Shown here: positions 35,293-64,000 of the stretch, piece by piece
How positions within the stretch are numbered: position 1 is the first letter of the stretch
Layout of the letters: each line of letters starts with the position of its first letter
Origin: Ptychodera flava
Taxonomy: Eukaryota; Hemichordata; Enteropneusta; Ptychoderidae
Length of the DNA: 64,000 nucleotides
Direction of reading: 5' to 3'
NCBI RefSeq assembly: GCF_041260155.1
Contig: NC_091933.1
Coordinates: 22,060,599 to 22,124,598, forward strand
Made by a program: the position numbers and the translations under genes
The notes under the pieces: generated by a model
What the model was told of the DNA's origin: nothing
The model's database searches: none
Seen by the model: the letters and a program-made list of their open reading frames with translations, nothing else

Positions 35293-35432
35293 TATGCTCC
35301 AAGGTTACTGAAGTACTGGGCCGGCCTTGGTTTGAATCAATCAAACGGCCGTTTTCAGGGTCACCACATCCTCCAAGAGATCATCTATATCTTACCTCCG
35401 ACAGTCACACAGAAAGATGTGCTTGTTTATGT

Positions 35433-38090: not shown

Positions 38091-39080
38091 TAGTTATCCC
38101 TATATACCAAAAATCGGACATCCAGCTCTATTGGCTTGCTCAGAATTAGATATGCGCATAATTAATGAGGTACAATATGTGGTGTCATAAGGTGTCCCAT
38201 CATACCAAATATGAAGGATGTAGCACTTGTGGTTACTGAGTTGTGGACAAATATATATATTTGAGGTCAAAGGTCATTCAGGTCACGTCACATTTTGTCA
38301 TAATAATTGTATAGCTAAGTTATTCCTATATACCAAAAATCAGACCTCTAGCTCTATTGGCTCGCTCAAAATTAGATATGCGCATAATTAATGAGGTACA
38401 ATATGTGGTGTCACAAGGTGTCCCATCATACCAAATATGAAGGATGTAGCACTTGTGGTTACTGAGTTGTGGACAAATATATATATTTGAGGTCAAAGGT
38501 CATTCAGGTCACGTCACATTTGTCATAATAATTGTATTGCTAAGTTATTCCTATATACCAAAAATCAGACCTCTAGCTCTATTTGCTCGCTCAAAATAAG
38601 ATATGAGCATAATTAATGAGGTACAATATATGGTGTCATAAGGTGTCCTATCATACCAAATATGAAGGGTGTAGCACTTGTGGTTACTGAGTTGTGGACA
38701 AATATGTATATTTGAGGTCAAAGGTCATTGAGGTCACGTGACGTTTTGTCAAACAAATTATATTGTTAACTTATCCGTATATACCAAAAATCAGACCTCT
38801 AGCTCTATTGGCTTGCTCAAAATTAGATATGCGCATAATTAATGGGGTACAATATGTGGCGTCATAAGGTGTCCCATCATACCAAATATGAAAGGTTTAG
38901 CACTTGTGGTTACTGAGTTATGGACAATAATGTATATTTGAGGTCAAAGGTCACCAAGGTCACATGATATTTTGTCAAAATGTCTGAGATATTGCGTGAA
39001 CTGATGGACTCACTGATGGACTCACGGACGGATATGACCCAATCTATAAGTCCCCTGGACTTTATCCGTGGGGACTAAAA
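38091..39080. repeat. Four-copy 226 bp tandem array, each copy with a DR1 nuclear-receptor site
   Basis: The phrase TATATACCAAAAATC recurs at about 38101, 38328, 38552 and 38778. Each unit contains AGGTCAAAGGTCA, a perfect direct repeat of AGGTCA with one base between (DR1), at 38264-38276, 38490-38502, 38715-38727 and 38941-38953. A third AGGTCA follows each (38280, 38506, 38731, 38957). The array ends in a block GGACGGATATGACCC...GACTTTATCCGTGGGGACT that resembles the end of the repeat at 39160-39417. DR1 sites are classic targets of RXR heterodimers, HNF4 and COUP-TF. Confidence 0.85.
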
Positions 39081-39767: not shown

Positions 39768-41335
39768 TGTTGACCCCTAGCCCTGCGTACGATGCTATGT
39801 GCTACAGCTAACACACAGCATAGTACGCAGGGCTAGCGAGAGAGTTGCCGACATCGACGGTTATTTACGAGAACTGAATAAAAGACTGTCATTTTTGGAA
39901 GCGATCGAGTAGCTGAGGTAGGCTGGGATACGACTTGGGCCCAAGAACGCTGAATTTCGGCAGTAATTTGGCTTTTTACGTCAAGTCCCAAAATCACAGG
40001 CGCTTGGCACATTGCTTGGATAATAATCGTATTTAATATGTAGAATGTCTATATTGAACCTGATTATTCAATAAAAGAATCACCCTACGCGATATTAGTG
40101 TAGGCCTATAGGCCTACACGTTGACTGGCATTGTACCTATGGCTGCCTGGCTCGGGCACGGCGAACGCACTGCATAATCATCAATGTGTAGAATGTCTAC
40201 ATGACTTCATTATTTATTAAAGAATAATGGTGCGTGATATTACTGTAGCATGTCAGCTTGCTTAACCGAGCGGCTGTAGAGCTCTGCAGGGCTTTGGCCC
40301 GGCTTTGGCCTGTTGTCCACTGCTGCACAGACAGGAAGTCAAGGCGTGAAAGTAATTCACAGCCCGACTTCATAAATCAGCGAAATTCACGAACTCTGAG
40401 CGTTTCCGGTGATAAAAACTGGTCAACGGTCAGATGGTTGCATAAACAATCGATCGACTGGCCTCTTTTGCCTAAAATCATACTTACCCTATGCTACTGG
40501 CGAGAAATCGTTCTGAAATCGGCTGGGCACACCAACCCAGCGCCGGCCATTTTGAATAAGCTGCATGCAATGTATGCGCCAGTGCAAACAACCCTGGCAG
40601 ATGACGTCATTGCTCTTCTCTCATTGGACGCGTACATTGAATGCAGCTCATTCAAAATGGCCGGCGCTGGGTTGGTGTGCCCAGCCAATTTCAGGACAAT
40701 TTCTCGCCAGTAGCATAGGGTAAGGTATGATTATAGGCAAAAGAGGCCAGTCGATCGATTGTTTATGCAACCATCTGACCGTTGACCAGTTTTTATCACC
40801 GGAAACGCTCAGAGTTCGTGAATTTCGCTGATTTATGAAATCGGGCTGTGAATTACTTTCACGCCTTGACTTCCTGTCTGTGCAGCAGTGGACAACAGGC
40901 CAAAGCCGGGCCAAAGCCCTGCAGAGCTCTACAGCCGCTCGGTTAAGCAAGCTGACATGTACAGTAATATCACGCACCGTTATTCTTTAATAAATAATGA
41001 AGTCATGTAGACATTCTACACATTGATGATTATGCAGTGCGTTCGCCGTGCCCGAGCCAGGCAGCCATAGGTACAATGCCAGTCAACGTGTAGGCCTATA
41101 GGCCTACACTAATATCGCGTAGGGTGATTCTTTTATTGAATAATCAGGTTCAATATAGACATTCTACATATTAAATACGATTATTATCCAAGCAATGTGC
41201 CAAGCGCCTGTGCGCAAGGCACTGGCTTTGAAGTCACCGACCCTACGTACGGGTCTTTGCAGGACTGTGGTGAGCGGGGCGATTAGCTGTAGCGGAACAC
41301 ACAGCATCGTACGCAGGGCTAGTTGACCCCAAGTG
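39768..41335. mobile_element. Foldback element with 580 bp near-perfect arms
   Basis: 39998-40575 and 40636-41213 are inverted copies, about 97-98 percent alike by eye, around a roughly 60 bp loop. Outer ends CCTAGCCCTGCGTACGATGC (about 39776) and its inverted partner (about 41305-41325) bound the structure. A further complete hairpin of this end sequence sits at 39777-39834. Each arm has the same open frame (for example RRESNSQPDF), which is a by-product of the duplication and not a recognised gene. A transcript through it would form a long double-stranded RNA. Confidence 0.75.
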
Positions 41336-43149: not shown

Positions 43150-43522
43150 ATGGCGAGCGGTTCGAGTACCTCGGCAGGTACAGGGGAACCGCGAAGTACA
43201 GCGCCTCCGAACTGGCCCCTGTTCAGGAAAACGCCTTATTCAAAGTTGAAAACCAACGTCAAGAGGAAAATCGGAATGTACCTATCCGACAGTTACACGG
43301 TAGCTAATGACTGGGTTGTATTAGCGGAGGCACTCGGGCTGGACAACGACGAGATCACGATGATTCGCTTGGAGGGTAGGAAAGAAGGCAAACTCGCCGG
43401 CGAGATTATGCTCGATTTATGGTCGAATAAGGGAAATGACAGCACTGTGAAAGTTCTTGAGGACCTGTTGATTGGCATACAACGATACGACGTTCTCGAT
43501 GTGCTGTACCAAGGTGCGCAAC
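43150..43522 (+). CDS. Gene A exon 1: MyD88-like Death domain
   Basis: It starts MASGSSTSAGTGEPRS, a low-complexity lead, then YSKLKTNVKRKIGMYLSDSY and ANDWVVLAEALGLDNDEI. The A.DW..LAE spacing, the later W, and RYDVLDVL at the end match MyD88 better than Fas/TNFR Death domains. In MyD88 this domain builds the Myddosome with IRAKs. The exon ends in phase 1 at C|GTAAGT. Confidence 0.8.
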
Positions 43523-45035
43523 GTAAGTGGCTTTAAGTTCACCAGGAAGTTGACTGAAATATTTGCCCACGCATTTACACACACATACATGTAAAGTAGG
43601 TGGTTACCCTACAGCAAGGCTTACAGCTTGGAAAATTTATGACACGGCCAATTTTTATAAACATTCAGCACTACACGGTCTAACTGCACCGTCCGGTAAG
43701 TTCCATGATGTGACCGAAATAAGGCGCGATCTTTCGGAACCTCGCATATATAGGATCACGGTCCCTCCACCAAAACCGTGATAGGCTGAACACTTAAATT
43801 CAAGGTGACCCTGCATGTACCGGCAACACATCATCCCTGTGTACCGCCTACCTGGTCAAATGAATACATGTCTCATGCAGCCATCACGATTAAACAGCGG
43901 GTAGCAGTCGAACCATGGCACCCGCAGTACTGGTGGTATGCTTTTTTCGAGCGAAAAATGATGACGAGAGAAATTATGTCACTGATACGCAGTCCCTTCA
44001 CCTCTGTGGCGTGGTCGATAATAACATAGGGGTTCTCTACATGTCTGCCCCCCGGGGTTGGCGTTGGGTTAGAGGTGTCTTGGTCTTAGGTCCATGGTCT
44101 CAGCATGGACGTAAAAATGGTCTCAGCACAGGTTTCTTTTAGCTATTGTTTATTTTTATTGTTTTTTAATACGTTTTACTACGATATATTTTGCCTTAAA
44201 GATGGTGTCTTTGGTGTCTTATTCTCAGTATTCTAATTATGTTAGCGCTGGTTTTGTAAAGATTTCTTTTTCCCCTTCGCTGTGTCATGTATTTGTCCTG
44301 ACCATTTTTCAAGTCTATGCTGCGATCAAGACACCTCTACCCTCACCCCCACCCCAGGGGACTGACATGTAGACGACCCCCCTATGATAATAACGAGATG
44401 TTGAACAGTTTTCATTCGTCGATGTTTACATTCTTGATATTTTGAACATGAAATCGGGCTGGCATGACGACATTATAAAATGTTTGAAACTTTAGAAACG
44501 AGTGGACCGGCGATATCGACTGCTGGCGATTACTTCACGATATGTTACGGATGGCGGCCTTCATAACATTTATTCAGTGAGTACTTATTTCCCCGAGTAC
44601 GCATTACCATGGAGCTAGAAACGGAGCTCCGTGGTATTACAGACGTTTGAATACATGTAAGTAATGACACGTGATTGGTACGTGACAGTTGAAGATGTAA
44701 ACATCCCTCTGACGGGATTAACAATGACAGCAAGAATGAAGGAATGCGGTTTGGCACTATGGTTTTACGCACCAATTCCCACCACTTTCGCTTGTGTCAT
44801 AATTTAGTTATTAGTCATCGTACTATTCCTGAAGCTGTTTAAAGTAAAAAAGTTTGTGATTCCCAGTGCCACAATATCAAAACAGTTTCAACAACAACAT
44901 CAACCGCGGCTAGATTTGTTGACGACTATTACATTACTCAGGTAAACACACATAATTTTCTTTCCAATCCATCGGCAAAGAAAGGCTTTCTGTTAATAGC
45001 ATTTCGATTGCTAAGTTCCGTCATTCGTAGGCTTG

Positions 45036-45112
<77 letters not shown>

Positions 45113-48100
45113 CAGTATGTTTACCGTCTAGGAAATGTAGTAGGTTTCCGCTTGTTATCGTACCCTCGAAACTCTTCCGCTTTCAAGGAGTCATAACAAT
45201 TGCTAGTTCCGCCCAACGTTCAGACTGGGAGATCTGGTAGATCGTCCCTGATCCAACTTCCACCGGTTCTGACGTGAGTACAAGTAAGACTAAAGTCACG
45301 TTCATAATGGGCTTCCATGAATTAGATATGGGAGTGGGCGGCGCGACAATCATCAAAATACAATAATTTCATTTTTCAACTCTTTTACATGATTTACAAC
45401 CCTCTCGTGCCGAGTCGGAGCTTACTAATGACATGGAGTTGGCGTACTTTTATCTTGGACTGACAACCGTGCCAGCAAAAGATATACAAGCAGTAAACTT
45501 CGTTTGCCCATTCGCTTGATTATTCAGATTATTACAACGTGATAAAGTATCAAACATGGCGACTTCTGCATATGTTATTGAGTGTGTCAAGACTGCGTTA
45601 AATTACTCTTTGTAATGGTATGTTTTCAGTAGCACTTCTCGATTCCGATTCCCCTCAGCGCTTTGTGATGCCATACGCTGTGCTGCTTCACTCGATTTTG
45701 TACATGAAACATGTAATGCTCTCATGTCACACATGCTGTTTAATCATTATATATTATACTATAGCTCTGTGCCAACTCACCTGTACAGTCATAATGGACC
45801 AAGACAACACGGTAGACCTGCCCAGGGAAGAACTCACCGTGCCCGAACAGGACAGTCTCAGGGTAGCACTTGACGGGCCTCTGAGAAAACTTGGTTTCTC
45901 GCCGGACGATCTTGAAGTCAATCTTGTCAGCGACAGAAAAATTACCTGGGACACCGAAACCCACGTCCTAAAAGTGAGTACAATCGTGACTTGAAAAGTG
46001 TTCGTTTGCGATTTGCTTGAAAATATTGCGGCATTTGTTTTTCATACCACAAATTTAAAATAAGTACATTGTCAAGGTGATGAGCCATGCATCTATACTA
46101 TTAGGCCTATATACGCCAAAGAAGAAAAAATCACAAATGCATTGACTGTAGGTTTAGGTCAAAGTGTCATTCAAATCATCTAAATTTAAAAGATTTCTGT
46201 TTGAAACTCTTTGTCACACCTTTAAACAATATTTGCCATTTTGCCACAGTGCTGGTGATATTATTATTATTATACTTTTTGAAGTTTTGAACTTTGAATA
46301 ATTTTGCAAAAATAATTTGAATTTTTTGAAACATTTTCTAAGTTTTATGTGGAGTTAATAGAGCATAGACTCTCGAGAGTCTATGAGTTAATAGAGCAAA
46401 GATTTCCTTGCGATTGAGGACTTTCTTGCATGACATATGCAAATGTCCATCATGGGATTTACCTGTGTCATCATCATGTTCTGTTTTTGTCCATAAGGAA
46501 GAATACTATGATTGAACTCATTCATACGCACGAGTGATTATGTTGTAAACACTCTGGTGTAATGAATGCAGTAACTACTAACATTTTCACATCCTCATTC
46601 TGAACCACACCAGGGCTACCACATCTACCTTTCCAAAAAAATACCAATTCAGATGCCGGAAGTTAGCTCCTCATCATCGCCGTCGGGAACGGAAGGCTTG
46701 AGTCCTCTTCCAGAAAACGATAATGATGATGTGGAAGTGATTACACCGACCAGCAAAAGTGCAAATGAGGAACCAGAATACGCTAACCTTGATGTCAACT
46801 TTGGATGGCATCAGTATTTGCCTGATAATAAATATGAGGTGAATAGCATGGACTACTGTTTGGTTTCCCCCAATACGGTTTTCTTTTGCACTGTAGACGT
46901 TTTCTTTTGTAGACCTTATATATATAGCCAACAAGACTACACCACATGGTAAAGCCTTGAAAGATTTACAGTGCAAAGTAAGGGCACACTATTTGTACAT
47001 GTCATCCGTATGACTCCAAATGTAACTCTTGCGCGTGCACGTGTGATTAACCTCGCGTAGATTTTTTTTTTGGGGGGGGAGGGGAGTATGATTTACATTT
47101 GAAAAACGTCTGCCCTCTCAAATGTAATTTCCGTTTTTGACATCAGAGCTTTTGCACTATTTGGATGAACATTAAATGTTGTAATTATCTTGACCACCAC
47201 CAGTTTAAAATAAACTTCCATCACGTCGTGATAATTTCATGTTTAGTTCTATTTTTGTTGACTTTCAAGGCCAGCACCTGTCATAATTTCTTTGTGTCGG
47301 CAATTCAAATGTTGTTCCCGTCAGTATAGCTTCTCACTCCAAATGTGGAAAACATCGATTGTCACAGGCAATTACCGGGCGCACAAGCTTTGTAAAAAAT
47401 CTCTTATTGCTGTATATGGTGACCTTTATTGACCTTGGATGACCTTGAATGTCTCACATAGTCTCTTTCACTCTTCAAGATCATCAAGGTGATGAGAGAT
47501 TACCTGAAGGCAGATGGTTACTTCATCATCAGAAGGACGAAAGAGGGCCATCTTGCTGTCAGTGTCACGTAAGCACATTCAGATAATATCTTGACAGATA
47601 AATAGATAGAGGAAGAGAAAAACAAAGAATTTATTTACCACAATCGATATAGGAAAGTCGTACTTTGTTTCTTCAAATGAAAACCGTTGAACAAAGTTCA
47701 ATATTTGGATGTGATGGAATAATATATTCTAAATGACCTAGTCTCAATACCAACAATCATTTCAGCATGATCTGCTGTTTCCCTAACGTACATCACAGTG
47801 CTCTGAATTTCGGTGGGTTTGTCCTCCATCTATTGGCAACAACTTAGACTAGTATATTAATATAGGTATATCAAATCAACACTGTAGTAAGCTCTGAGAA
47901 GATACAGATACATCATCACTTTACAGATTAAACTAGATCCATCCTGTGGGCTAGTTTTATGGGTAATTATATATAGCATAATTCCTTCGTTTATTATATC
48001 CGATTCAGTTGTAACATTTTGTGCACATATGCAGTAAAAGTGCAATTTCAATAAACCAATATCATAAAAATGATATCAATACATCAACACCTAGCAATCA

Positions 48101-48503
48101 TGAACCTTCAGATAACAATAATTACATCAAAAATTAGGGAGACAACTTTTTGACTCACCTTGCCCACTTGTTTCTTTTGAATTCTGTATATAGTACATTA
48201 CAACAATTGCATTTAATTTTTTTCTTGTTGAATTTACTCAGATACATGGGAAAAATTAAACACTTCAAGATCTATAAGCGCAAGGGACTTTGGTACTTCT
48301 ACAGAGATGGGGAGAGGAAGGACTCCATCGAGGGACTGATAAAATATTACATGGACATGCCCTTGGTATACACACAGAAACAACTTAGGGAGTCCAATAA
48401 CTCGGAGGCGCCCCCACTGCCACCAAGAGTCTCGTTGAAACTGAAATATCCCGTGTGTGTTGACAGGAAACTTGAGGAGTCCCATCGAACTTTAAAATAT
48501 TAA
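43150..48503 (+). CDS. Death-RBD-SH2 adaptor, gene A (complete, five exons)
   Basis: Exons 43150-43522, 45765-45973, 46614-46838, 47480-47568 and 48242-48503 have GT-AG borders and phases 1, 0, 0, 2, and sum to 1158 nt (385 residues). Residues about 30-124 form a Death domain most like that of MyD88 (ANDWVVLAEALGLDNDEI, then RYDVLDVL). Residues 125-205 resemble the Raf-type Ras-binding domain (RKLGFSPDDL, KITWDTETHVLKGYHIYL). The linker has EPEYANL, a YxN Grb2-SH2 site. The SH2 runs from WHQYLPDNKYE to DMPLVY and keeps the FLVR arginine (GYFIIRR) and the beta-D histidine (IKHFKI). The tail has APPLPPR, an SH3 ligand. It is probably a cytosolic scaffold joining Death-fold, Ras-like and tyrosine-kinase signals. 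Function is inferred from domains. I know no described protein with this order. Confidence 0.82.
44601..44640. repeat. 26 bp palindromic insert with 7 bp flanks (one mismatch)
   Basis: CATGGAGCT (44608-44616), eight bases, AGCTCCGTG (44625-44633). Flanks are GCATTAC (44601-44607) and GTATTAC (44634-44640). It lies in gene A intron 1 and has the same design as 25931-25972 and 35433-35472. Confidence 0.7.
45040..45108. repeat. (AT)n microsatellite
   Basis: About 34 AT units in gene A intron 1. Confidence 0.97.
45765..45973 (+). CDS. Gene A exon 2: Raf-RBD-like module
   Basis: It begins with LCQLTCTV, a motif also found at the second RBD exon of gene B (RCQLQCTL). The core RVALDGPLRKLGFSPDDLEV and KITWDTETHVLK parallels the Raf RBD pattern SLHDCLMKALKVRGLQPE and LDWNTDAASLIG. 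The final strand GYHIYL is encoded by the next exon. The acidic loop (PREELTVPEQD) lacks the basic residues Raf uses to grip Ras, so binding to Ras itself is uncertain. Another ubiquitin-fold role is possible. Confidence 0.6.
46353..46396. repeat. Perfect 22 bp palindrome between exact 11 bp direct repeats
   Basis: CATAGACTCTC and its exact complement (46364-46385) lie between AGTTAATAGAG at 46353-46363 and AGTTAATAGAG at 46386-46396. It looks like a target duplication around a minute insert in gene A intron 2. A related CCATAGACA hairpin is at 15574-15607. Confidence 0.75.
46614..46838 (+). CDS. Gene A exon 3: RBD last strand, linker with YxN, SH2 start
   Basis: It starts GYHIYLSKKIPIQM (end of the RBD fold), then a Ser/Pro/acidic linker, EEPEYANLDV, and WHQYLPDNKYE, whose Trp begins the SH2 fold. 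YANL fits pYxN, the Grb2 SH2 consensus. It could also be an intramolecular ligand for the protein's own SH2. Confidence 0.75.
47480..47568 (+). CDS. Gene A exon 4: SH2 N-terminal half
   Basis: It encodes IIKVMRDYLKADGYFIIRRT and on to HLAVSVT. Arg in FIIR is the phosphate-binding FLVR arginine. Lys replaces the usual Arg at alpha-A2, whereas gene B has Arg there (ITRVMGEYL). Confidence 0.8.
48242..48503 (+). CDS. Gene A exon 5: SH2 C-terminal half and PxxPxR tail
   Basis: It encodes YMGKIKHFKIYKRKGLWYF with the beta-D4 histidine, DSIEGLIKYYMDMPLVY, then APPLPPRVSLKLKYP. PPLPPR is a class II SH3 ligand. The stop is at 48501-48503. Confidence 0.8.
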
Positions 48504-48796
48504 AGCGACATGATGTCAACGTCTTGATCAAGAGTCTATACAACTTGTGGAACTGCCTGTCATAATTGCACAGAGTGTAAGTTATCTGTACTTTAAAAGC
48601 ACAGGTTCAGTGATCATGATTATTGACTTGATAAAGCCATGGCTCGGTATCAAGGCGAGTTTCAAGGAAAAACAAAGGATTTTAAAAACAAAATGTAGCC
48701 AGGGCAGACATTAGATTTCTGTGAGTTTTACCAGAAATTGAGGACAGCAGAAACCCGCGGTGCAATGACACTTGTCATCATTTTTCTGTATATCAA

Positions 48797-48802
48797 AATA
48801 AA
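48797..48802 (+). promoter_or_regulatory. Gene A polyadenylation signal (candidate)
   Basis: AATAAA lies 294 bases after the stop. Another AATAAA occurs at about 50078. Confidence 0.4.
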
Positions 48803-50907
48803 ATGTTTGGCATTTTACTTTTGTCAGATTGTCTTTCACCAGAGGAATCAAGGAAAAATTCTAACTTGGGATTTTAAGACAGGATACATGTTATCGCGTA
48901 GCATATACTATCATCAGCTGTTGTGGATCGGAAACCATACACAGGATTCTTTGAATTCGTCAAATGTGTTGATGCAATTAAATTATATGTATAAAAACAC
49001 TGCTGTGTATCTAGGTTTTATTACAAAAAAATTGCGACCACCTTTGTATTTTTAGCCGTTTCCATGAAAGTCTCAGGGTTTGTAGAATTCATTTTTGTCA
49101 AATCTGTTGGTTTTATCACCAAGTCCGATAACTTCTGTAACTTCCAACACTTTTCGTTTTGAAATGTAAGTGAAGATCTTAAACTCATTTTGTCAAAAGG
49201 AGTATATGTTTGATGAGTTGATGTGTAAACATTTAGATATTAATATCAGAACTGCCTTCTAGTCCATTACTGGAAAATTGTAACAATCAGAAACTAGCCT
49301 AAGAAATCATAGTTTACACAGCAAACAATAACAAGAGAATTAGTTGCCATAGTGAACATGAAAAAGAGTTCCATCAAATCTGATGGAATACAAATACGAC
49401 ATCCATTGTGTCTACGAAATTACCAATTGTGATGGTGGATTCGTGCATTTTCTGAGGCGGGCAACCTGTCAAGTTTTGAATTCCCAAATTTTTGCCACGT
49501 GACCAGATTGGATGTCTATATATAGCTTTAACAGAGAACAGTTGTACATACTAATACAGTATATGGACATTACTTACTATTTACTACAGTAAGAATGACG
49601 GGGTGTTGGTGTTGGTTGAGTTTTAAAAATATTATATTCCTATATAGGCCTACATGGTAATTGTTCTAGCACCGGGCATATGATTTTTTTTTAGTTCACG
49701 TGTCTTCAAGGCTATACAGTCTGTTCACCCGTGGACATCCATTTTCTAAAACTGTACCAGAATGTTTCTTCAGAAAAGGCTTATAGAACTGTGATTTTTG
49801 TGACTAGTACCGCTAGTCGAAATACTTTGTAGCTCAAGTTTTCTTTTGTTAAAAAAACGAAACAAAGTCAAGGTGCAAATCTTAGAGGATTTAGGAAAGT
49901 TGACAGAAAGGACACAGAAGGAAGTACCAAAAGTGAAAGTTTCCTGTATCGATACAGGATTTGTGTTAGTAAACTTGGTACAATGTTTATATATAATGTA
50001 TGTATAATTACTACTAATTATAAGTTATTGCCAGATAATAGGCATGCTTATCATGCTGCCCTCGTTAAATAACGTTTAATAAAATAAACTAAAATACAAC
50101 CATAAGGCTGAAGTAATTAAAGTCTTTGTTTTACGTCCCTGCATGTGTACGTTTTCGAAGGTTTTCATGAAAAAACACCTACATTGTATTTGAATAGGAC
50201 TTTATTGCATAGCTTTATTGCCTACAAATCTTTGTGTATGAATTTTGTAAAATGTACAATGTCTATATGGTCGCAGATCGAAAGTTACATGGCCTTGTAA
50301 ATTACGGAGATGATATCGATAAAAAAGTTTCTGTTTTGATTCTTGAATGTGCACTTATGGAATACCACTCAAGTAGATGAGCTTGCAACATTACTACAAT
50401 ATCCCATTCTCCCAAATTTATATGTAAATGTTATATAATTATATATTATATATTAAGTGTTATATGCAGTCAATATGCCAAAGTCATTTTAAAGAACTTC
50501 GTTCTGATATTAACAGTCATCTGCACATACGATAATATCTGTCTCCTCTTTAATACCAGATGGAATAATTTTAATGAAGTCTTTGCAATCATTTGCAGTC
50601 GAGTCAGTATCTGTTGATGTGGAAACAGTGAGTAAGATAGAAGACTCTCTTCTGACGTGTCTACATTACCATAAAAGTAGATAAGCTAATGAAGTGGTAT
50701 AAAAAATAATATAACTTTATTTTACTGCCCATTGTTGTCATCTTATCTTCTGGATCAAGTGCATACCCAAAGTCCAGAGGGTCAGGACTGTGACATACCA
50801 TAGCTTAAATGAGAAAAGTCTTGCCGATTGAGGGCGCGTGTACTTTGGCTGTTTTGATTTGGTCAAACACTGTACAACGGGTGAATCCCGAGTTGTTTGC
50901 CACTCAA
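48803..50907. other. Spacer between adaptor genes A and B
   Basis: There is no coding signal. 50103-50198 is a one-ended relic of the MITE at 52781-53047 (AAGTAATTAAAGTCTTTGTT, then GGTTTTCATGAAAAA and TTTGAATAGGA). The promoter of gene B should lie just before 50908. Confidence 0.45.
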
Positions 50908-51246
50908 ATGATGGCTGGAAATGGTCTGCCGCGTAACTGGAGTGAAATCCAGATGCAACCGTTTAGTTCTGTCACTAACGCCGTGAAAGATCGGATGGGC
51001 GTCCTCCTCACTCAGAACTTATGCACTGCCGAGGATTGGCAGGACTTGGCGGAGCGCCTGAACTTCAGCAACGAAATATCACACGCATACGACAGGAGGG
51101 TGTCAAACATGGTCGAACACCCGGAAGGATTTTGCTCGACGAATTAAAGCGTCGGGGGAAGCATTGTACTGTGAAGACCGTAGAAGACTGTCTTATTATC
51201 ATGGAGAGACATGACGTACTTGAAGTTCTTCGTAAATGTAGTCTTG
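50908..51246 (+). CDS. Gene B exon 1: Death domain with frame break
   Basis: From ATG at 50908 or 50911, LPRNWSEI aligns with PPNWPLFR of gene A. EDWQDLAERLNFSNE and, in another frame, GRILLDELKRRGKHCTVKTV and RHDVLEVL complete a MyD88-like Death domain. It ends phase 1 before GTAAGT, as in gene A. The frame break lies in AACGAAATATCACACGC. Confidence 0.65.
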
Positions 51247-54200
51247 GTAAGTCAACGAGGTCATTCATGACTCGACTTTATATTCCAATGCGGAAGTTAA
51301 AACTTCGAAATCTGGATGAACCACAGTACGGATATACCACTGCCGATATACTTGGAACGAGTACAACCACGGAGCGGGCTCTCAGTTCGAAGGCGATCGA
51401 AGGCCTAATCTTGTCCCCAAGACAGAATACACGATGAGCTAGTACAGGTGAAACCGGAAGGTGAAACGCCCGGGGGGGGGGGGGGGGGGGGAGATGAATT
51501 TTCAAAAGTCCGCTGTACGCCAACTAAAACGCTGTTTTCAAAAGTCCGCTGTACACCAACTAAAACGCGGTTTGTTTGCGAGTTTCTGGCCACTTAAAGC
51601 TACTAAATTTATATCCAACGAACAGTTTTATATTTTTATCATAGGAAGATTGAAATACAGTGCTAAACGAAAGAGAACATGTAAAGTTTCACAGAACTAT
51701 AGCTTTCCGATCAGGACAGAATTAAACACTTTTTCTCTGATTCTTTGGGTGTATTGGTTTTTAAAAAATACATTCATTTATTGTTTTATGAAAAGCTATT
51801 GCCTGTATTCCGTCATACATAATTTATGCACCAACCATCCTCTACGACCTTTTATCATGTTTAAAGGAGGCAGTCGTCGGAACTGCGCGTGTGCGACTTT
51901 CTTGTTTACAAACAATGTATTTTCATGCATGATATGTAGATGCATCAAGTCAACGTAACTGCAACATTTAAATTTTACGATATTCATTGTTGACAATTTT
52001 TTAACATGTTTAAATTTTCATCAATCACAAACTTACCTTAGATACAGTGTATACATCAGTCGTAGGAGTCCAAGCATGGCAACCTTTAAGCAGAGTTCCG
52101 GCGACTGCCACCAAAATACTCCAAATAATTTATCATTTTGATTTTATACCCTAGAATTCATTGTTGTTTTAAAAAATTGTCAAAATTCTCATTTTTGCAA
52201 TTTGCCATTTTTGCGTATATACAATATCTGGCAACCCTCCAAGTTCATACCTTTATAAGAGCCATTAAACATTTTTCCATACAACACTCATTTTATAAGT
52301 TGTCAATATCATTCTAAAATCCTGAGGAGAGAAAAACATGCTGTATCTGAATATTACCATGCACTTTTTCCATATGTAGGATAATTACCCACAATGCATA
52401 GCAACATAGAATTCTTATGAGAAACACTGCTCACAAGTGTAAGAGTTGATAAGTTTTTGGGCACACAAACAACGATGGATGCTTTTTACAGGATGTTTAC
52501 CATTATGGTGAAATACACATTCATTCATCTTACAATCTCTATTGATTGCCGCAAGCTGGTGCATAAACTTTTTATGATGTATAAGCTGAAAGTGACTCGA
52601 TAGTCCAGTCAAAATAGAGTTAGACCCACCACAAATTGCAACAGAATTTTTTGCTTCGGAATGCATTTCAGAGAGGTACCCAGAACAACATATTAAAAGT
52701 TTACTCGAATCCACCTTGGGAAATATGTCTAATTTGCATAAATCAAATATGGCGGCCAACCATCCAACAAAATAACATAAGGCCAAAGTAATTAAATTCT
52801 TTGTTTTGCGTCCACTCACAATGGGAAAAGGTACGCGTCTAAGCGGCTGAAAAACACACACAAGAAAATTAACACAATGTAATTTGATTGCAGCAAATAA
52901 AAAATTGTAACAAAATTTTTAGTTCAGAAAAGCTAAGCGGTAATGTCCTAAAATTTCCTATTCAAATACACTGTGTGTGTTTTTCATGAAAACCTTAAAA
53001 ACCTAGGCGGGTGGGGACGCAAAACAAAGAATTTAATTACTTTGGCCTAATGTGCTATATATCACATGTTAAACAAGCTATTTCAGTGATTTCAAAGTCT
53101 GACACTAGTAATTTGGCCCAGGGAATTATTTTGGAGGTATAATGTTCCTTATAGGTCTTTATTAATTTGCATAATTCCAATATGGCGGCCAACATTCCTA
53201 CAAAGACATTTTCGGTCATATACCACGTATTAAACAAACTATTTCAGTGATTTTAAAGTTAAAAGTATATTTCTTTGGCATGGACAAGCGATTTTCGAGA
53301 TGTTATGATTTGCATAGGTATTTGTTAATTTGCTTAAATCCAATATGCTGGCCGACATTTCTACAAAGGACATTGTCGGTCATAAACCAGGCATTAAACA
53401 AGCTATTGATTTTAAAGTTTTAATATTTTTCTTGGGTATGAAGAAACACTTTTAGTGGCTCAATTTTTACAAAGGCCCTTTGATAATTTGCATAAATTAA
53501 ATATGGCTGCCATATTAATGCCCATGGCTTAATAGCTTCTAATATAAATAACGGTTTTGGTATAGATTTTAGCACTATTAAACTATCAAGAAGAAACTGT
53601 TAAGTCCTTGGACATTCATTTTTAAAATTTTTTGATTTTTCTGTGTATGACGACTGTTAATGTTAATGAATGTTAGTCTTCTGAATGATATATTCTCTTT
53701 TAAAATATGACATTGAATTCATCTGTGTGTGGCATTTTCGTTATTTGTAAGAGTGTTTAACACTCTAAAGTGTCAAAGCATGTAATCTGTAATGTTTACT
53801 GTTAAAAAAAGGGGTGTTCAAAACCTTTAGTTTTTAATTTAGACTTAACCCCCTCCTTATGGATGGGTGCATCTTTATAAGATCCCTTAGATGATAGGCA
53901 AGAAGTCATCACACATACCAGCAAAATACAATAAACACAACAAAGCTAAAAAAACAGAAAAAATGATATGACCGAAATAAAAATTGTCGTAATACACACA
54001 AATTGAAACTTAGCACTATTGCAAACAATGTCAGATTCATAAAAACTTTCTGGACACACAAACTCAAAAAATCTGAAAACTGCATGCTTTAGCAAAGACT
54101 TACAATTAATCCAAACACAGAATCGATTTATTACACAATACAAAGAAGTACATCTTGAGTCATTTTTCCAAGTGTCATTTTCCAGATGTACATGTTTGTA

Positions 54201-57200
54201 TCGTGTAACAGTTGGATTCTGTTGGGCTAATGAGTTGTTTGAATTAATTTTAAGTCTTTGCTAAGCATGCAATTTTCAATTTTTGTGAGTTTGTGGGTTG
54301 ATCAAGTTTTTAAGAGTCTGACATTGTTTGCATCAGCGTTAAGTTTTAACTTGTCTGTATTGTGGCATGTGTTATTTTTGGTCACATTATTTATTTTTTG
54401 CCTTGTTATTATCTTTGTTGTGTTTATTGTATTTTTGCTGTTATATGTGATGACTTCTTGCCTATCATCTAGGGGGATGTACCGGTACCAAAGATGCACT
54501 CGTCCATAAGGAAGGGGTTCAGTCTAAATTAGAAAATAAAGATTTTGTCCACGACTTTTTAAAACAGAAATATTAAAGATTATATGTTTTAACACTGTAG
54601 AGTATAAAGCACCTATTAAAATCACAAATAATGCCATACAAAGATGGATCAAATGTTATATTCAGAAAGAGATTATTATTAGACGACTAACAATCATTAC
54701 GGTTGTCATATATAGAAAAATCACAAAATAATTCAAATTGTATGACTCTCTTCCATCTCAATAGTAAATGCACATCAACATATACGTATTTGAATCCGTT
54801 CGTAAGTCAAAGATGTAAGTCTACCAAATTTGCTTTAACATTCTTTTCAAAATACAATATATTTATGGGGTATTTTAACGAATTCAGGTATCACAGACAC
54901 CTATTAAAATAAAACTTATTCGTAAATGGACTGTTATTGTATGTAAATTTATTGTATATTTTCTACATTTTTAAAAATAAATGTTCAAGGACTTAATGTG
55001 GAGCTGCACGTTGCCAACACAGTTTTTTTCGAAGGAATATTTCTCATCTAAAATGACAAGGAAAGCCTTACAAACTATTTTGTGAAATGTAATATTTCCC
55101 TTGAAACAAGAGTATATCCTCATTCTAAAATGGCATGGGCTGAACGACTGACATTCAAAAAAGTGCTTAAAATCATGGTTAGCAAAATAAAAATGCCTCT
55201 AATTCAAAATGTAAGAAATTTATTGCAAAACAAAATGGTTGTTTTGTTATATAGCATTTAAAAACATAATGTGAAAATTTCAGAAAATATGACCCAGCCG
55301 GAACAGAGTTATATTCTTTGGAAATCTAGAAATTTGGATAAAAGGGAAGCAGGAATTCGGGTGATTTGCATACATTTGCATACATTAACCCTTTTATATC
55401 ATGCCACTTACGACTGCTTGCCAAGCCAAAAGGTGGCCTAACCAATTTTTAATCTTGGGTTAACAAATAAATAAAAATTGGAAGAATATTTGCAAAATAC
55501 AGTGCGTTGGGTGCAGTGCCCTCTTGACAGTTTTTTCTTGATATTCCTATTCCTAAAAACTCTACCATAATCTTATTTATATTAGAAGCTATTCGGGCAT
55601 TAATGTGGCAGCCATATTTAATTTCTGAAAATCATCAAAGTGTCATTTAAAAACATTGAACCACAAAAGGTGTTTCTTCATGCTCCAGAAATATAATTTA
55701 ACTTCAAAATGGCTGAAATAGATTGTTCAATACATTTTATGACAGAAAATTTCTTTTGTATTGGATTTATGCAAATTAACGAAGTGCCAACGCAAATCAT
55801 TGCACCTCAAACATCATTTGGCCATGCCAAATAAATATACTTTTAACTTGAAATCACAGAAATAGCTTGTTTAATCCTTTGACTGCTGTAATTTTTTACA
55901 CCAAAATTTTAATGTGATATTTTACCAATTTCTGTGAACATTTCTGTACGTTTTTTCATAATTTTGGACCAAATGGATATCATTTTTCAGCAGCTACAGA
56001 TTTTAATCAAAATTTTGGCAAAAAGCAGAAAAATTGACTGTGGTACATTTTATAAAGTTGACAAAAATAGACTTTGGCGCCCAAAGGGTTAATACATGGT
56101 ATATGACAGAAAATGTCTTTTGTAGGTATGTTGGCCACCATATTGGATTTATGCAAATTAACGAATTACCTATGCAAATCATTGCATCTCGAAAATTGTT
56201 TGTCCATGCCAAAGAAATATACTTTTAACATTGAAATCACTGAAACGGCTAGTTTAACCCTTTGACTGCTGTAATTTTTACACTAAAATTTTAATGCAAT
56301 ATTTTACCAATTTCTGTGAACTTTTCTGTATGTTTTTTTGATATTTTTGACCAAATAGATATCATTTTTCATCAGCTACATTTTTTATCAAAATTTTGGC
56401 AAAAGCAGAAAAATTGACTGTGGTGCATTTTAAAAAGTTGACAAAAATAGACTTTGGCGCCCAAAGGGTTAATACGTGGTATATGACAGAAAATGTCTTT
56501 TGTAGGTATGTTGGCCACCATATTGGATTTATGCAAATTAACAAATAACCTATGCAAATCATTGCATCTCGAAAATCGTTTGTCCATGCCTAAGAAATAT
56601 ACTTTTAACTTTAAAATTACTGAAAGAGCTTGTTTAATACATGATATATAACCGAAAATGTCTTTTGTAGGAATGTTGGCCACCATATTGGAATTACGCA
56701 AATTAATGAAGTGCCCATATGAAACATTATACCCCCAAATGATTCCCTGAGCCAAATAACTAGTGTCAGACTTTGAAATAACTGAAATACATGTAGCTTG
56801 TTTAATATGTGATATATAGCCAATTATGTTATTTTGTTGGATGGTTGGCTGCCATATTTGATTTATGCCTAGGCGTCCTAGGTAAAGCCTAGGCGTCATC
56901 CTTGATTCTCATCTCACACTGAGACCTAATGTTTCAGAGATCTGCCGTACGGCAACCTTTCATCTACGACGCATTGCTCGTATTCGTAAATATTTATCAA
57001 GGTCTGCCACAGAACAACTTGTCCATGCATTTATCACATCTCGTATTGATTTCTGTAACTCTCTGTTGTATGGACTTCCGAATAATTTAATCATTCAGAT
57101 TCAACGTGTTCAAAACATGGCTGCAAGAATTGTAACTCGTTCAAAAATCTCTCTTCATATCACCCCTGTTCTGTACCAGTTGCATTGGTTACCGGTGACA

Positions 57201-57619
57201 CAGCGCATTGTATTTAAGATGTTAGTCCTGACTTTTAAGTGTATTCACGGGCTTGCTCCCAGTTATCTTTCAAATATGATATCACTCTATGTTCCATGTC
57301 GTAACTTGAGGTCAGCTGACCAGTTCAGACTTCGTCCGGTTCGATCGCGCACAAAGAAGTATGGAGATCGTTCGTTTAGTGTGGCAGCTCCCATACTCTG
57401 GAACAGTCTTCCATTAGATATTCGGCGTTCTCCTAGCCTGTCAATTTTTAAAACTAATGTTAAAACTTTCCTTTTTAAATTTGCTTTTTAGACTTTGGTT
57501 TTAGATGGTTTTATTGTAGTTTTTTTTTTTATTACTGTTTTAATTGCTTTTTGTGATATGTAAATTTTCTCACAGCGTCCTTGATCACTTTGTTGTGGAT
57601 ATTGACGCTTTATAAATAA

Positions 57620-57651
<32 letters not shown>

Positions 57652-60600
57652 GCAAATTAGACATATTTCCCAAGGTGGATTCGAGTAAACTTTTATATGT
57701 TGTTCTGGGTACCTCATTAAAATGCATTCTGAAGAAAAAAATTCTGTTTGCAATTTGTGGTGAGTTAGGTGCCAAAATCTCGTAGATTGACTGGACTACG
57801 AGTGAACGGCACGAGTATTGCCAGGGCAATTCCCCGAATACTGTATCTGTCATAAGAGCTGTCGTATTATAGCCTTGTCAGTACCAGTGAATTTTGTGAT
57901 GTCATCCCCAAAATTATTACTGATAATGTATCCGGTTATCCGGCATTTTAGCCCCAGATGTTTCTACAAATTCAATAGTATTGCCAAAACTTATAAAATA
58001 TAGCAATATGTATCTGCCCCTCCAGCCCATAATGGACTCAGGCAAACTTTGCACTCCATAATGTACTTGGCAAGATTGTGATTAAGTGCTAAAAAGCTGA
58101 AAAGAATGAAAAAAGTGGTAACAAAAAGCACAGTGAGAAAATCTGATGTTCCAATCATGTCAACAAAAACCCAATTTGATATAAAAAGTTCTGGTGGTAC
58201 CAATTGCAATCTTGTGCGTTTCACTTGGTGAGAGTGAGTAAGATAAATTGTTCAAACAGTCCCCCCATCCATTAAGGGACTGTGATGTTTGCAACAGTTT
58301 CGCTCACAGTAAACAATTAAAGACACGGTGTGAATCATACAGTTCCTTGTTGACAAAAGCTATAGAGCCCCAGGTACGTGAAAGTCTTGTAGATAACTCC
58401 AAATGAAACCATCCGGCTATTTGGATAGTATGCACAAATGCACAATAGAGCTAGCCCAAGATGACACCGCCAATAGAGCAAGTTGATGGTACATCTGATT
58501 CAAGAGTGAGACAACACTGGGCATAGCCAGGACGAGATAGGTCGATGGATCACATCGAAGTGAACAACATGCCTCGGGGACAGATATTCAGACTCTTAAA
58601 TTTTGATAATTCTTTTCTGATCTCCCACTTGTGGGGGCTCATTCTAAAGCTTTTGGAGAAAGAAAACTTTTACAGTTTTTATTTTTTTTTAATTTTTCCC
58701 CGTAGAGTTAACACAGGGGTGGTGACCATTTTGAATTTCAAATATCGGTAAATCTTGGGTTATTTGTTTCGCTAGTTCCAAACTTTGCATGGTGCCCCCC
58801 CCCCCCCCCCCCCCCCCCCCATTTTATCGTTGATTTAGTAAGAGAATGGTTGAAAATTGCATCTATCAAAGTGTGAGGGAAAGTTTAAGTCTTTTACTCT
58901 CGAAGCACATACTCTTTACTTTGCAACATTCAGAAAAGTTGATAAAAAAAAATGTAGAGTAGATGCAGAGATGTAGAAAATAGCTGGCAGCCGGCAACAC
59001 CAACTTGCTGTCAGCTAAAATTTGCCAGCTGGGAAAATTTAGCTTAAGTAAAAATCAGGACATTTTGAACAAACTTTTATGTGCACATACACTGCTTGTA
59101 ACCACCTTTACATTTTTTTGCCACCTGTAACCAAAATTTTCTACACCCCTTGGATGGCAATGGAAAAGTATGACAGTAATTTCATCATAAATCTGACAAT
59201 GAGATTCAATCGACAAAATAAATACCCTACTTCATATATATAACAATACCAGGTGCCCAAATTTTATTCAATATTGCCAGCGTTAATTATCGGCAGATTC
59301 TCGAATGCAAGAAAAGCAAAGAATAATACTTGCAAACCAAAATAAACATTGGATATGTAGATGCCTAGCTATTCATTTTGTCAGCAGCAACCTTGGAGTC
59401 AATTCTTCCTAGGGAGAATTCCCTGTAACACTGAGAGGGATGGCAATTTTTTTTGGCTGCATTAAAATTTTAGTAAAATGCAAGTTTATTGAATGTTCAT
59501 TAAAATTGTTTCATTAACCACTTTCACATTGACCTAATACATTAGAAGATATTCCTTTGAGTCAGACAACATGTTTTTTTTTTCAGCTGGTAATTGCACC
59601 TTTACATGCACGTGTGAAATTGCTGGCCAAGAACATATTGATCTGACATGCTTGGATGTTTGTAAAGAAATGACTGTAGAGGGCGCTCTGCAAGGGAAGC
59701 TGGAGAAGAAAAACTTGAAGAAAGAAGAACTTTATTTTGAAGATATCCCTGGTATTGGTGTCAACTGGAATGACAAAGTTGGCAAATTCAAGGTACTTAT
59801 TAGTAATTTTAATGGAAAGGATTGGTATTTGTCCTGTAAGTTTACATACATGGCTGTCAAATTGTACATAGGCTAGATCTTAGACTTGAATGAGGAATTG
59901 ACCTCCATTGTGAAATCGTACATGATCACATTTGGCCTTTTATTGGGGCGTTTTCTGTGAATTATTTGAATACCAGATAGAATAAGATTACTTTCACCGA
60001 TCATTTTTGTTCATGTAACGTACCACTACTGTATTATGGGTCCCTTAGCAGTCTGATACCAATGGAAGGGAAAACACACACAAAAAAACTATTGACTTTG
60101 AGAACAGCCAAAAAAATTACCTTTGTGAATATTTGCATTTAATGTTACTGTTATTTTGACACAGGGATATCATGTTAAGCTGCATAGGAGAGAAGCACCC
60201 ATTAGAAAAGACAATTTTGAAAACCAATCAGTTGCGAGATCTGATCCGACGCCACCTGTTAGAGAAGACACGTCTAAAAACCAATCAGTTGTGAGATTTG
60301 ATCAGATGCCACCTGGTGAAGAAATAGAAGCACAGAAAGATGGTAGGAAAGTGATATTGTGTGATATCAGAAATGTTTTGTCAACTCGGAAGTGTATACT
60401 CTTGAGACCATTATCTTGGTTTAACCCAGTTGTTTTGTTTGATGTTGTTTGACTTTAATGTATACAAGGAGAGGCAGGAGACATCATTGTACGTGTCTTG
60501 CTTTATGACTAGAACAAACATGGTATGTGTGGTACATGATTTGTGGTACATAAAAAACAAATCTTACAAGTTAGTGATTAGTACATATGACAAATGATGG

Positions 60601-63600
60601 TTTCAATTTCAACATTGATCTGTATCAGCTCATATCATTAAATGTTCATTGTCAACAGTCCAGTTTGAATCCAGAATTCTTGTGTGATGGAAGCACTAAG
60701 TCTGCACACCTGACTGGTGCCTGATTGTCCATGTTGGATAGCCATATCAATTGAAAGCTCCGTAAGCTTTCACATTTGATGTGTTTTCCTGATTTTTTGC
60801 TGTGTCTCTTCAAATGCTTTTGTGTTTAACTTTCAAAATCATGTTGAAGTGCCCAGTATTCAATCTATCAACGTTATACCTTTGTATCTGAAATGTTCAT
60901 TTTTACTGTCGACAGCTGAATTGTAGTCCAGACTAGAAATATTATAAGTTGTATGTGCAAGGCTAATACTAGATCAACATATGGAGATTGAAAGGTTCAG
61001 TAAATGTTCCTTCGAAGACATGAAGATACTGTAAAATTGTAAATGTACCAGCCATTACATATGTCTTGGGATATCGATTTTAACTTTTCACTCCTGAATC
61101 GATCACCATCCAATTTTTTTTTTCTTGTGATTGTGTACCAGAACGTTGCCAACTTCAGTGCACTTTAAAGATGGAAGACATGCCCATTGACCTATCAGTG
61201 CCTGATGTAGAAACTCAGGTCACTCTGAGGCAAGCATTAGGAGATGACTTGAAGATCAACGGTCTCTCGGTGGACCATCTTGAGTTTGAAGAAATTCCAT
61301 GTGTTACTGTTAACTGGGAAGTTAGTGTTGGACAAGTAAAGGTAACTCCTTTGGGCTGTTATAAAGTGCTCGGAAAATTAAACTGATCAAAATGTTGCCG
61401 TTCTTGAAGAATCAGAGGAGACACTTTTTTCCTTTACAGCCCTGATAAATATTTCAGTGGGTGACACGGTGGAAAGGAACAGACCTCCTGATGTCCTTTC
61501 CATTGTATGACATAGAATATATGTACTTCAATAATTCTCATTTCCGCAGAGGCTTCATCTTGCACCATATGGAACGTCAGACATCAGTGTTAAAAATTAT
61601 ATCAAAGCCTTGTCTATACCAGCAAATTTTGTGATGTCCCCCCCCAAGGTTGTTACTGATAATGTCTCTAATTATCCAGCATTGTGGGCCCAGATGTTTC
61701 CTACATCTACAAATTCCCTGGCATTGCCGAAACTATGAAAAAATAGCAATAATGTACCCCTTCCAGGCCTTAATAGACTCAAGCAAACTTTGCACTCCAT
61801 AATGTACTCTGCTTAACCTCGAACATCATGTCATGCAAAGTTTGTTTTCTATTATGGTGTGAGAAGGGGTACAGTATAGCTCTTGAATTGGATATGTTTA
61901 TCACTATCTCAATATGTTGCAATCAGTGGTGCATTAAATAGTAAAATATCGCACAAATATGAGGGCCCTTTCTTCTTTTATATCAAGATGTAAATATCAA
62001 GATTTGGAATAAAAAAATTGTGTGTTTCCGTCAATAAGCCTGTAGGAAAAATGTGGATCATTCAACAACTTTTTAGCTCTGCTGTCAGTGATGCGGAGCT
62101 TATCAAATAGGCTGATTGTCCATCATCATCATCCTTCCGTCCATCTGTCTGTCCGTCCATCATCCATCAACAATTGCCTTCTTTTCTGACACTGCATGTC
62201 AAATTGCTTTGAAAGTTGATGTGCAGTTCACTAGGTTTGTTCAAATTTTAATATACAAATTTGTATTTTTAAGGCGATTTTTGTCATTTTTGGTCAAAAA
62301 TTTATTTCACCTAAACCGCTTGTCTGACAGCTTTGATATGTGGTATATAGGTTCCTAAGGATTATCGAGTTTATGATGTATTGAAATAATGATTTTTGGG
62401 GCGATTTCTGCCATTTTTGGTCAAAAAAGATGCTTCTCAAAAAACTGCTCCTCTGATAACTTTGTTGACATGTTCTCTTAGATGATTTTAGTGTGAAATG
62501 TTCAAATTATGATGAAATCTTCAATTGTGTATTTTTGCAGGTATTTTTGACATTTTTTGTTGGGCCATCCTGAAATTAGCTATCAAAAATTTCCACCTTT
62601 CTACAAGTGTCACAAATATTTATTCTGTACATAACTGGCAGATCTGTATTGGCCAACAGGTCGCTTGTTTATTTCAGTGTTTCCCATCAAAAAACAGCAA
62701 ATTCAGCAAAATTGTGATCATTGAAAATGAAAGAAAATCTAAGCGTGGAGGGTTTTAAATAGTGTTGGTTGGATTACTGGAAACACACATTTTTTATTTG
62801 TTTGGTTTTTTTGAAATTCAGATTTTTAACTGCCTGGCTTGTAATGATAATCACATAACACTTTATACACTAAGAAACCATTCACCCTCAAAGATCACAG
62901 AAATTCCTAAATCCTGTGTTGACTACTACAGTGATGCTGACTGTGTTCATTGTTTATCTTTGCGCCAAAAGAATCATCATCTAATAATACGAAAGAAGGA
63001 AACAAGATCTGCTAGGGAAATTCAATCTGTGCCACTAGATGATGAGGATGATGATCACCTGGTTTCACATACACCTTTTGGAAAAGAAGAGGTCGGAAAA
63101 ACAGGGGAGACATTAGGGAGTAACTCAGTCTTTACAAAAACAGTGCACCCTGAAGGTGAAGTTTCTGGCATCAGTTTTATGCAGCCTTCTCCTCTCTATG
63201 ATGAAGCAATCTCAAGTACGGACGATGTAAGTGCAGGACACGGACATCGGCCGCTTTGCAAGACTGCCAGTGGTAGCTCTTTAAGGACTGAGGCAAGTGC
63301 TTGGTATGATCAATCTGCAAATTTGGATCAGCCGGAACAGGAGAGACGGAGACTGGCGAATCTTCCGCCGGGAGAAGCAGAAGACCTGTACATGCCACTG
63401 TTCAAAAGTGCGGCCGACAGGGAGCGTTTCCTGGCATCACAGGACACCCATTGTAAAACAGACGAAGATCAACATGTGACTCCGTATCAGCCCAGCAGTG
63501 GTACAACCGCTAGCATGGCCAGCAGCACCACTGCCATCACTATCGCAGAAACTGCAGTTGTCATGGAGAATGAGGCTGAAAACGATTATAGTGACATGAT

Positions 63601-64000
63601 AACAATTCCCAGTTGGCATCCACACCTGCCAGATGCCAAGGAAGAGGTACGTGTCATTCCAAATTGATAAATATCCATAAACAGACAAGTGTCTCCTAAA
63701 GCCAGACTCTCAGTTTCATCAGTGAATGTGGGTTTAGTCCAGTGGTGCAAATAACGAAATCAACCTGATCAATGTAAAATAGTGCATTCCATACCAGGGA
63801 GGGTGCCTTGCAGTCAGACACGTACAGCAAATCTTTTCAAGATGTCAGTCTTCATCAATTGTCTTTATGTAGGTTACAGTGTAGTGTCTATTATCTCTCT
63901 CATTTTGTCATTTTTATTGTTTTGCCAAAATTTCTTTCAAAGGTAATTTTACTGTCTTTGCAATTCTAGATCACAAGGGTGATGGGAGAGTATCTTCAGC
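50908..64000 (+). CDS. Death-RBD-RBD-SH2 adaptor, gene B (partial, runs off window)
   Basis: This is the tandem paralog of gene A. Exons: 50908-51246 (Death), 59587-59792 and 60165-60342 (first RBD-like module plus proline linker), 61142-61341 (second RBD-like module), 62822-63646 (275-residue linker ending PSWHPHLPDAKEE), 63970-64000 (SH2 start ITRVMGEYL). Phases 1, 0, 1, 0, 0 agree with gene A where comparable. The Death exon needs a frame change near 51072: sequence upstream reads DWQDLAERLNFSNE, downstream ITRIRQEGVKHGRTPGRILL, and two extra bases (or one missing) separate them. So the gene is damaged, or the base is a sequencing error. Intron 1 (8.3 kb) is swollen by a foldback element and a LINE. 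The exon at 62822 is the least certain call. Confidence 0.7.
51472..51568. repeat. G20 run and 33 bp tandem pair
   Basis: Twenty G residues are followed by two copies of a unit containing TTCAAAAGTCCGCTGTAC and CCAACTAAAACGC. It lies in gene B intron 1. Confidence 0.85.
51570..52591. other. Gene B intron 1, left part
   Basis: AT-rich, with no gene or repeat terminus recognised. Confidence 0.4.
52781..53047. mobile_element. PIF/Harbinger-type MITE with TAA target duplication
   Basis: It has perfect 33 bp terminal inverted repeats starting GGCCAAAGTAATTAAATTCT. TAA flanks both ends (52778-52780 and 53048-53050). The uninterrupted site is visible in the opposite arm of the host element (AACATAATTGGCTATATAT, inverted at about 56810-56840), which confirms a clean insertion. 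Three-base TWA duplications are the hallmark of PIF/Harbinger. Confidence 0.85.
56869..57647 (+). mobile_element. 5'-truncated non-LTR retrotransposon (CR1/L2-like LINE)
   Basis: It encodes the C-terminal part of a reverse transcriptase in one frame: LGVILDSHLTLRPNV (56889), FITSRIDFCNSLLYGLP, RVQNMAARIVTRS, LHWLPVTQRIVFKML, APSYLSNMI, RSFSVAAPILWNSLP, SIFKTNVKTFLFKFAF, ending 57491. The 3' end is a (TTA)n tail. TTATGC lies on both sides (56863-56868 and 57648-57653) as the target duplication, and joining the flanks restores the host repeat. The coding frame is intact over its 200 residues, so the insertion looks fairly young. Confidence 0.9.
57871..58067. repeat. Dispersed 0.2 kb repeat, copy a
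   Basis: About 200 bp are shared with 61605-61808: AATTTTGTGATGTC, TTACTGATAATGT, CCCAGATGTTTC, then CAAACTTTGCACTCCATAAT. Class unknown. Confidence 0.75.
58600..58915. repeat. Dispersed 0.3 kb repeat, copy c, with poly-C tract
   Basis: Third copy of the family at 18600-18930. It contains a run of about 26 C residues at 58795-58820 where the other copies have only a short C run. Confidence 0.7.
58916..59586. other. Gene B intron 1, right part
   Basis: Nothing recognised. It ends in a long T tract and CAG at 59584-59586, a strong 3' splice site for exon 2. Confidence 0.5.
59587..60342 (+). CDS. Gene B exons 2-3: first RBD-like module and proline repeat
   Basis: Exon 2 (59587-59792) ends VNWNDKVGKFK. 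Exon 3 (60165-60342) starts GYHVKLHRRE, the same strand and split position as GYHIYL in gene A. Exon 3 then has two diverged copies of a roughly 20-residue unit (NQSVARSDPTPPVRED, NQSVVRFDQMPPGEE). PTPPVR fits a class II SH3 ligand. Exon 3 ends phase 1. Confidence 0.7.
60752..61015. mobile_element. Diverged TTAA-type MITE, copy 3
   Basis: GAAAGCTCCGTAAGCTTTCA at the left and the AGTCCAGACTAGAA block match 26418-26773. The right end is eroded. It lies in gene B intron 3. Confidence 0.5.
61142..61341 (+). CDS. Gene B exon 4: second RBD-like module
   Basis: It begins RCQLQCTLKMEDMPIDLSV and continues QALGDDLKINGLSVDHLEF and VTVNWEVSVGQVK. It matches exon 2 of gene A at the CQLxCT start, the G-L-x-x-x-x-L core and the W strand. 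It starts phase 1 and ends phase 0, like that exon. It is closer to the gene A module in its first residues than the other gene B module is. Confidence 0.7.
61342..62821. other. Gene B intron 4
   Basis: It contains copy b of the 0.2 kb repeat (61605-61808). A possible alternative exon start at 61550 (CAG|AGGCTTCATCTT, reading RLHLAPYGTSD) lacks a convincing donor. Confidence 0.5.
62822..63646 (+). CDS. Gene B exon 5: long linker and SH2 start
   Basis: Open for 275 codons after a good T-rich acceptor. It ends IPSWHPHLPDAKEE, homologous to GWHQYLPDNKYE of gene A, then GTACGTG. It contains several Tyr motifs (LYDEAI, DLYMPLF, DYSDMI) that could be kinase sites, and is rich in Ser, Thr and acidic residues. 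The first residues (IFNCLACNDNHITLYTL) replace the expected RBD strand only loosely, so the 5' border is tentative. Confidence 0.6.
63970..64000 (+). CDS. Gene B exon 6: SH2 start, cut by window end
   Basis: After TTCTAG, the frame reads ITRVMGEYLQ, aligned with IIKVMRDYLK of gene A. Arg at the third position is the canonical alpha-A2 arginine. Confidence 0.75.
   Translation, partial: MTRVMGEYLQ

Follow-up and report, generated by a model that had tools for sequence, protein, structure and literature searches.

Does the 64,000-nucleotide stretch of Ptychodera flava DNA analysed here (the window; assembly GCF_041260155.1, contig NC_091933.1, positions 22,060,599 to 22,124,598 of the forward strand) hold a gene that joins a Death domain, a module resembling the Raf RBD and an SH2 domain in a single protein, and what might such a protein do? 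The answer favoured here, at about even confidence, is that the locus holds a real gene of a tandem pair, whose product is an adaptor that would provide phosphotyrosine-gated entry to Death-domain signalling, probably without Raf-style Ras binding. The coordinates of both copies are collected in Table 1.

Copy 1 lies on the forward strand and consists of five GT-AG exons, which join into one frame of 385 codons plus stop with intron phases 1, 0, 0 and 2. The initial annotation had these borders and coordinates right but overlooked the second copy; the pair extends to the end of the window. The donors are, in order, AAC/GTAAGT, AAA/GTGAGT, GAG/GTGAAT and CAC/GTAAGC (slash, exon end), and in-frame stops lie 5' of the start codon. 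Regarding the junctions, the one between exons 4 and 5 is supported because the SH2 Pfam match (residues 279-335) spans both exons, and the one between exons 2 and 3 is slightly supported because the RBD score, 18.8 bits without the first residues of exon 3, becomes 20.4 bits with them. The junction between exons 1 and 2 is supported by its phase and by the same order and phase in copy 2.

The predicted copy 1 protein was compared with Pfam under the curated cut-offs (Death PF00531, 22.6 bits; SH2 PF00017, 21.0 bits; RBD PF02196, 25.7 bits). Death (36.6 bits, E 5.1e-9) and SH2 (32.2 bits, E 1.1e-7) exceeded their cut-offs and RBD did not, so that two of the three domains initially proposed were recovered at this level. 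The Death domain had been likened to MyD88, and among solved structures MyD88 is indeed the nearest (6i3n, E 3.2e-5; 3mop, 9e-5), followed by NRADD (0.022). No Pfam match to TIR was obtained in the 385-residue protein, nor on the forward strand of intron 1 or of 48504-50904. The FLVR arginine and the beta-D histidine of SH2 domains bind phosphate, and copy 1 keeps both (R287 in FIIR, H306 in KHF), as had been read from the sequence. The two short motifs were also found where they had been placed, namely Y250-A-N-L, of the pYxN type, and PPLPPR at residues 356-361. A YxN context at a phosphotyrosine lends itself to Grb2-type reading, and PxxPxR-type motifs bind SH3 domains.

A tblastn search of the copy 1 exons against the window revealed a diverged second copy (50908-64000) on the same strand and with the same domain order. 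It differs from copy 1 in having two RBD-like modules (A and B), a longer linker that is acidic and contains tyrosines, and only the start of SH2 within the window. The intron phases of the two copies agree at three comparable sites: 1 between Death and RBD-like module, 0 within the RBD-like module and 0 before exon 4. The preferred linker exon of copy 2 encodes 225 residues with five tyrosines (contexts YDEA, YDQS, DLYMPL, PYQP and DYSDM), and the open frame 5' of this exon adds two further tyrosines. Nine residues ahead of the SH2 tryptophan, copy 1 has a tyrosine (YANL), and copy 2 has one at that distance from the matching tryptophan (YSDM). The Pro-rich tail is seen in copy 1 only. The Death exon of copy 2 is 8.3 kb away from the next exon, and splicing across this distance is predicted only. 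(Note that the first linker exon of copy 2, 60165..60342, contains an in-frame tandem repeat of 57 nucleotides, 60202-60315.)

Regarding the divergence of the copies, the Death domains are 34% and 51% identical on the two sides of the copy 2 frameshift, and the RBD-like modules 39% (copy 1 vs B), 24% (copy 1 vs A) and 37% (A vs B). Near the start of SH2, the copies agree in 9 of the 23 residues that precede exon 4 and in 5 of the first 10 residues of that exon. Five non-overlapping comparisons, covering 193 codons, contained 80 identical residues and 87, 71 and 119 differences at codon positions 1, 2 and 3, respectively; seven comparisons in which some exons were reused (324 codons) yielded 160, 121 and 209. 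As a neutral control, random changes were introduced into the copy 1 exons until they were as divergent as the copies are (48% of bases), in 500 runs without selection. The alignment score and the aligned length observed were attained by none of these runs, the third-position excess by 10. Because simulations without selection rarely or never match the observed values, it is concluded that for most of the time since the copies separated, both were maintained as protein.

The adaptor would have the layout Death, RBD-like (a single module in copy 1, a double one in copy 2), tyrosine linker, SH2 and Pro-rich tail, and is presumably cytoplasmic. Through its SH2 domain it would dock onto receptors or scaffolds that carry phosphorylated tyrosines. 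Grb2-like SH2/SH3 adaptors could be recruited by the YANL tyrosine of the linker and by the PPLPPR tail, and the clustered Death domains may then seed, or become part of, a Death assembly of the MyD88/IRAK type. The RBD-like part would act as a ubiquitin-like interaction module. Tyrosine motifs and Pro-rich stretches are typical of scaffolds that are read by SH2 and SH3 proteins, and their joining to a MyD88-like Death domain suggests phosphotyrosine-gated Death clustering. Such Death/SH2 wiring can work, since artificial DED-SH2 adaptors diverted tyrosine-kinase signalling to apoptosis (work cited in the accessible text of PMC2575513). Somewhat more tentatively, we propose that natural adaptors of the form Death-(RBD-like)1-2-SH2 make up a tandem-duplicated family, which would feed phosphotyrosine signals into Myddosome-type assembly, with copy 2 as a double-module, multi-tyrosine scaffold and the family as a natural counterpart of the engineered DED-SH2 switches.

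Several observations weigh against this interpretation. The exon 1/2 junction, at which the Death and RBD-like parts meet, lies inside no domain. The Death exon of copy 2 carries a frameshift, which may mark a pseudogene, an allele or a sequence error, and copy 2 has YSDM, so that the YxN context is not conserved. The aligner prefers amino-acid matches and thereby inflates the third-position excess (control mean 0.080 vs 0.207 observed), and because the aligner alone yields some of this excess, its chi-square p of 4e-6 makes the evidence look stronger than it is.

The main rival, although unlikely, is an inhibitory decoy, i.e., a TIR-less MyD88-type Death domain that SH2 would bring to activated kinases, where it would poison or titrate Myddosome-type assembly. 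The short MyD88 isoform inhibits such assembly, and a decoy would agree with the missing Pfam match to TIR and with MyD88 as the closest solved structure, but SH2, YANL and PPLPPR suit an active scaffold at least equally well.

A second rival, that of a Ras-family effector adaptor, depends on the middle module, for which the initial annotation had proposed a Raf-RBD-like fold and a working link to a small GTPase. An RBD-like module that binds active GTPase would couple Ras/Rap to Death-domain and tyrosine-kinase signalling. With respect to the fold, the module is probably ubiquitin-like and nearest to Raf RBDs, which we state with moderate confidence only. The PF02196 cut-off was missed: copy 1 scored 16.0 bits as a whole protein and 19.8, 18.8 and 20.4 bits in fragments (E 4.9e-4 for the best fragment), and modules A and B of copy 2 gave no Pfam RBD match. 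The module models as ubiquitin-like, its hhalign score to Raf RBDs was reached by none of 100 column shuffles, and in a second-look alignment of module A, Raf or Raf-derived RBDs occupied ranks 1-20. The helix region and W-D-T line up with Raf RBDs, with no gaps in the helix. There was no Pfam match to TRADD-N in the protein or in module fragments, a family of which Pfam may miss divergent members.

The proposed working GTPase link was not supported. According to the accessible text of PMC7895934, the C-Raf/Ras interface involves basic residues in strand 2 and in the helix K84-R89, and the exchange R89L in C-Raf almost completely abolishes Ras binding. The equivalents of K84, K87 and R89 were read by hand from the alignment, ungapped in the helix, together with the C-Raf letters; they are G162, R165 and L167 in copy 1, G, E and K in module A, and D, K and N in module B. 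In copy 1, only K87 is thus matched, by Arg165. None of the three modules keeps Lys at position 84 together with Arg at 89, module A being basic (Lys) at 89. Raf-style Ras binding is doubtful because the place of R89 holds Leu, Lys and Asn in the three modules. Judged from these residues, a small-GTPase link of the Raf form is unlikely, most clearly in copy 1, with other modes possible. The effector reading as a whole appears improbable, even given the alignment results above and the basic residue that each module has at one of the three places (R165 in copy 1, Lys at R89 in A, Lys at K87 in B).

Very improbable is the misjoining of two genes (a Death-only exon 1 and an RBD-like/SH2 adaptor) or a decaying duplicate pair: no domain crosses the first junction, intron 1 measures 2.2 kb and copy 2 has its frameshifted Death exon 8.3 kb from the next, but copy 2 repeats the phase-1 border and the Death-then-RBD order on the same strand, the exon 1 donor fits 8 of 9 consensus bases while the exon 1 frame stops four codons later, and the forward strand of intron 1 is without any Pfam match at E 0.1.

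Table 1. Features of the two gene copies, in positions of the window
Feature	Position	Strand	Content
Copy 1, exon 1	43150..43522	+	Start codon, N-terminal stretch, complete Death domain
Copy 1, Death match (residues 50-121)	43297-43512	+	Pfam
Copy 1, exon 2	45765..45973	+	RBD-like module minus last strand (residues 125-194), by analogy with Raf RBD
Copy 1, exon 3	46614..46838	+	RBD-like last strand GYHIYL (by analogy), Ser-rich acidic linker, YANL, Trp259 (expected SH2 start)
Copy 1, Y250-A-N-L, pYxN-type motif	46779..46790	+	
Copy 1, exon 4	47480..47568	+	SH2 first half with FIIR; R287 codon 47531-47533
Copy 1, exon 5	48242..48503	+	SH2 second half with H306, Pro-rich tail, stop
Copy 1, PPLPPR, PxxPxR-type motif	48411..48428	+	
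Copy 1, AATAAA	48797..48802	+	Possible poly(A) signal
Copy 2, Death exon	50908..51246	+	One-base frameshift near 51075; donor of phase 1, matching copy 1
Copy 2, RBD-like module A	59587..59792	+	Phase 1 in, phase 0 out
Copy 2, first linker exon	60165..60342	+	Probable last strand of A (GYHVKL) and linker; weak donor GTAGGA, phase 1
Copy 2, RBD-like module B	61142..61341	+	Phase 1 in, phase 0 out
Copy 2, linker exon	62972..63646	+	Probable last strand of B (NHHLIIRKKE), acidic linker, YSDM, SWHPHLPD (start of SH2); start of exon uncertain
Copy 2, SH2 exon start	63970..64000	+	ITRVMGEYLQ, exon 4 counterpart; exon cut by window end

Elsewhere in the window, exons of an ordinary conserved neighbour gene, KIN17, lie on the reverse strand (21891-23247; WH_KIN17, E 2.4e-15 and 4.1e-28). 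Together with the introns they fit a eukaryotic source, and the Death and SH2 domains, given their usual distribution, fit an animal one. A direct repeat of 1.94 kb with 99.3% identity (1-1939 and 33369-35297, 33.4 kb apart) represents a recent duplication, a mobile element or an assembly duplication. A near-perfect inverted repeat has arms of about 490 bases each (39995-40483 and 40725-41212) with a short spacer between them, and satellite-like arrays with units of 226 and 380 bases occupy 38092-38981 and 55759-56637. An open frame of 201 residues (56886-57488) gave no Pfam match at E 0.1; it looks like the terminal part of a non-LTR reverse transcriptase.

In vertebrates, the link between tyrosine-kinase and Death-domain signalling is, as far as is known, made by separate proteins. 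If the adaptor interpretation is true, animals have evolved a direct wire between the two, similar in kind to what has been engineered, and the gene pair would offer a compact system for studying phosphotyrosine control of Death-domain assembly. The gene is also a further case of domain shuffling among animal immune-type adaptors. With MyD88, its nearest solved structure, the adaptor shares the N-terminal Death domain; MyD88 consists of Death and TIR, whereas here an RBD-like module and SH2 take the place of TIR. Adaptors of the SLP-76/BLNK type likewise combine tyrosine motifs, a Pro-rich stretch and SH2 with no enzyme domain, but their motif order differs, and of the two only the adaptor described here has an N-terminal Death domain and RBD-like module. 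Raf RBDs share with the middle module a likely beta-grasp fold, in which helix and W-D-T align, whereas the module stays under the Pfam cut-off, is without C-Raf K84 and R89, and is accompanied by no Pfam kinase match.

The domain order had been thought to be new. As far as the literature searched goes it is, whereas the kind, a shuffled immune-type adaptor, is already known: neither a natural Death-RBD-SH2 protein nor a natural protein of plain Death-SH2 form was found in the accessible parts of the open-access literature searched (subscription papers, supplements and architecture databases being outside this scope), but a related theme has been described. TRADD-N proteins of marine animals, in the accessible text of PMC8195603, have Death-like N-termini and in some cases SH2 among their C-terminal domains; they thus resemble the present pair in combining Death-like and SH2 parts in one protein and in lineage-specific expansion, and differ from it in that the middle module here gives no Pfam TRADD-N match and models as ubiquitin-like. 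The artificial DED-SH2 chimeras, as presented in the accessible text of PMC2575513, are engineered and carry DED instead of Death, but like the proposed adaptor they couple a death-fold domain with SH2 so that tyrosine kinase signals are redirected.
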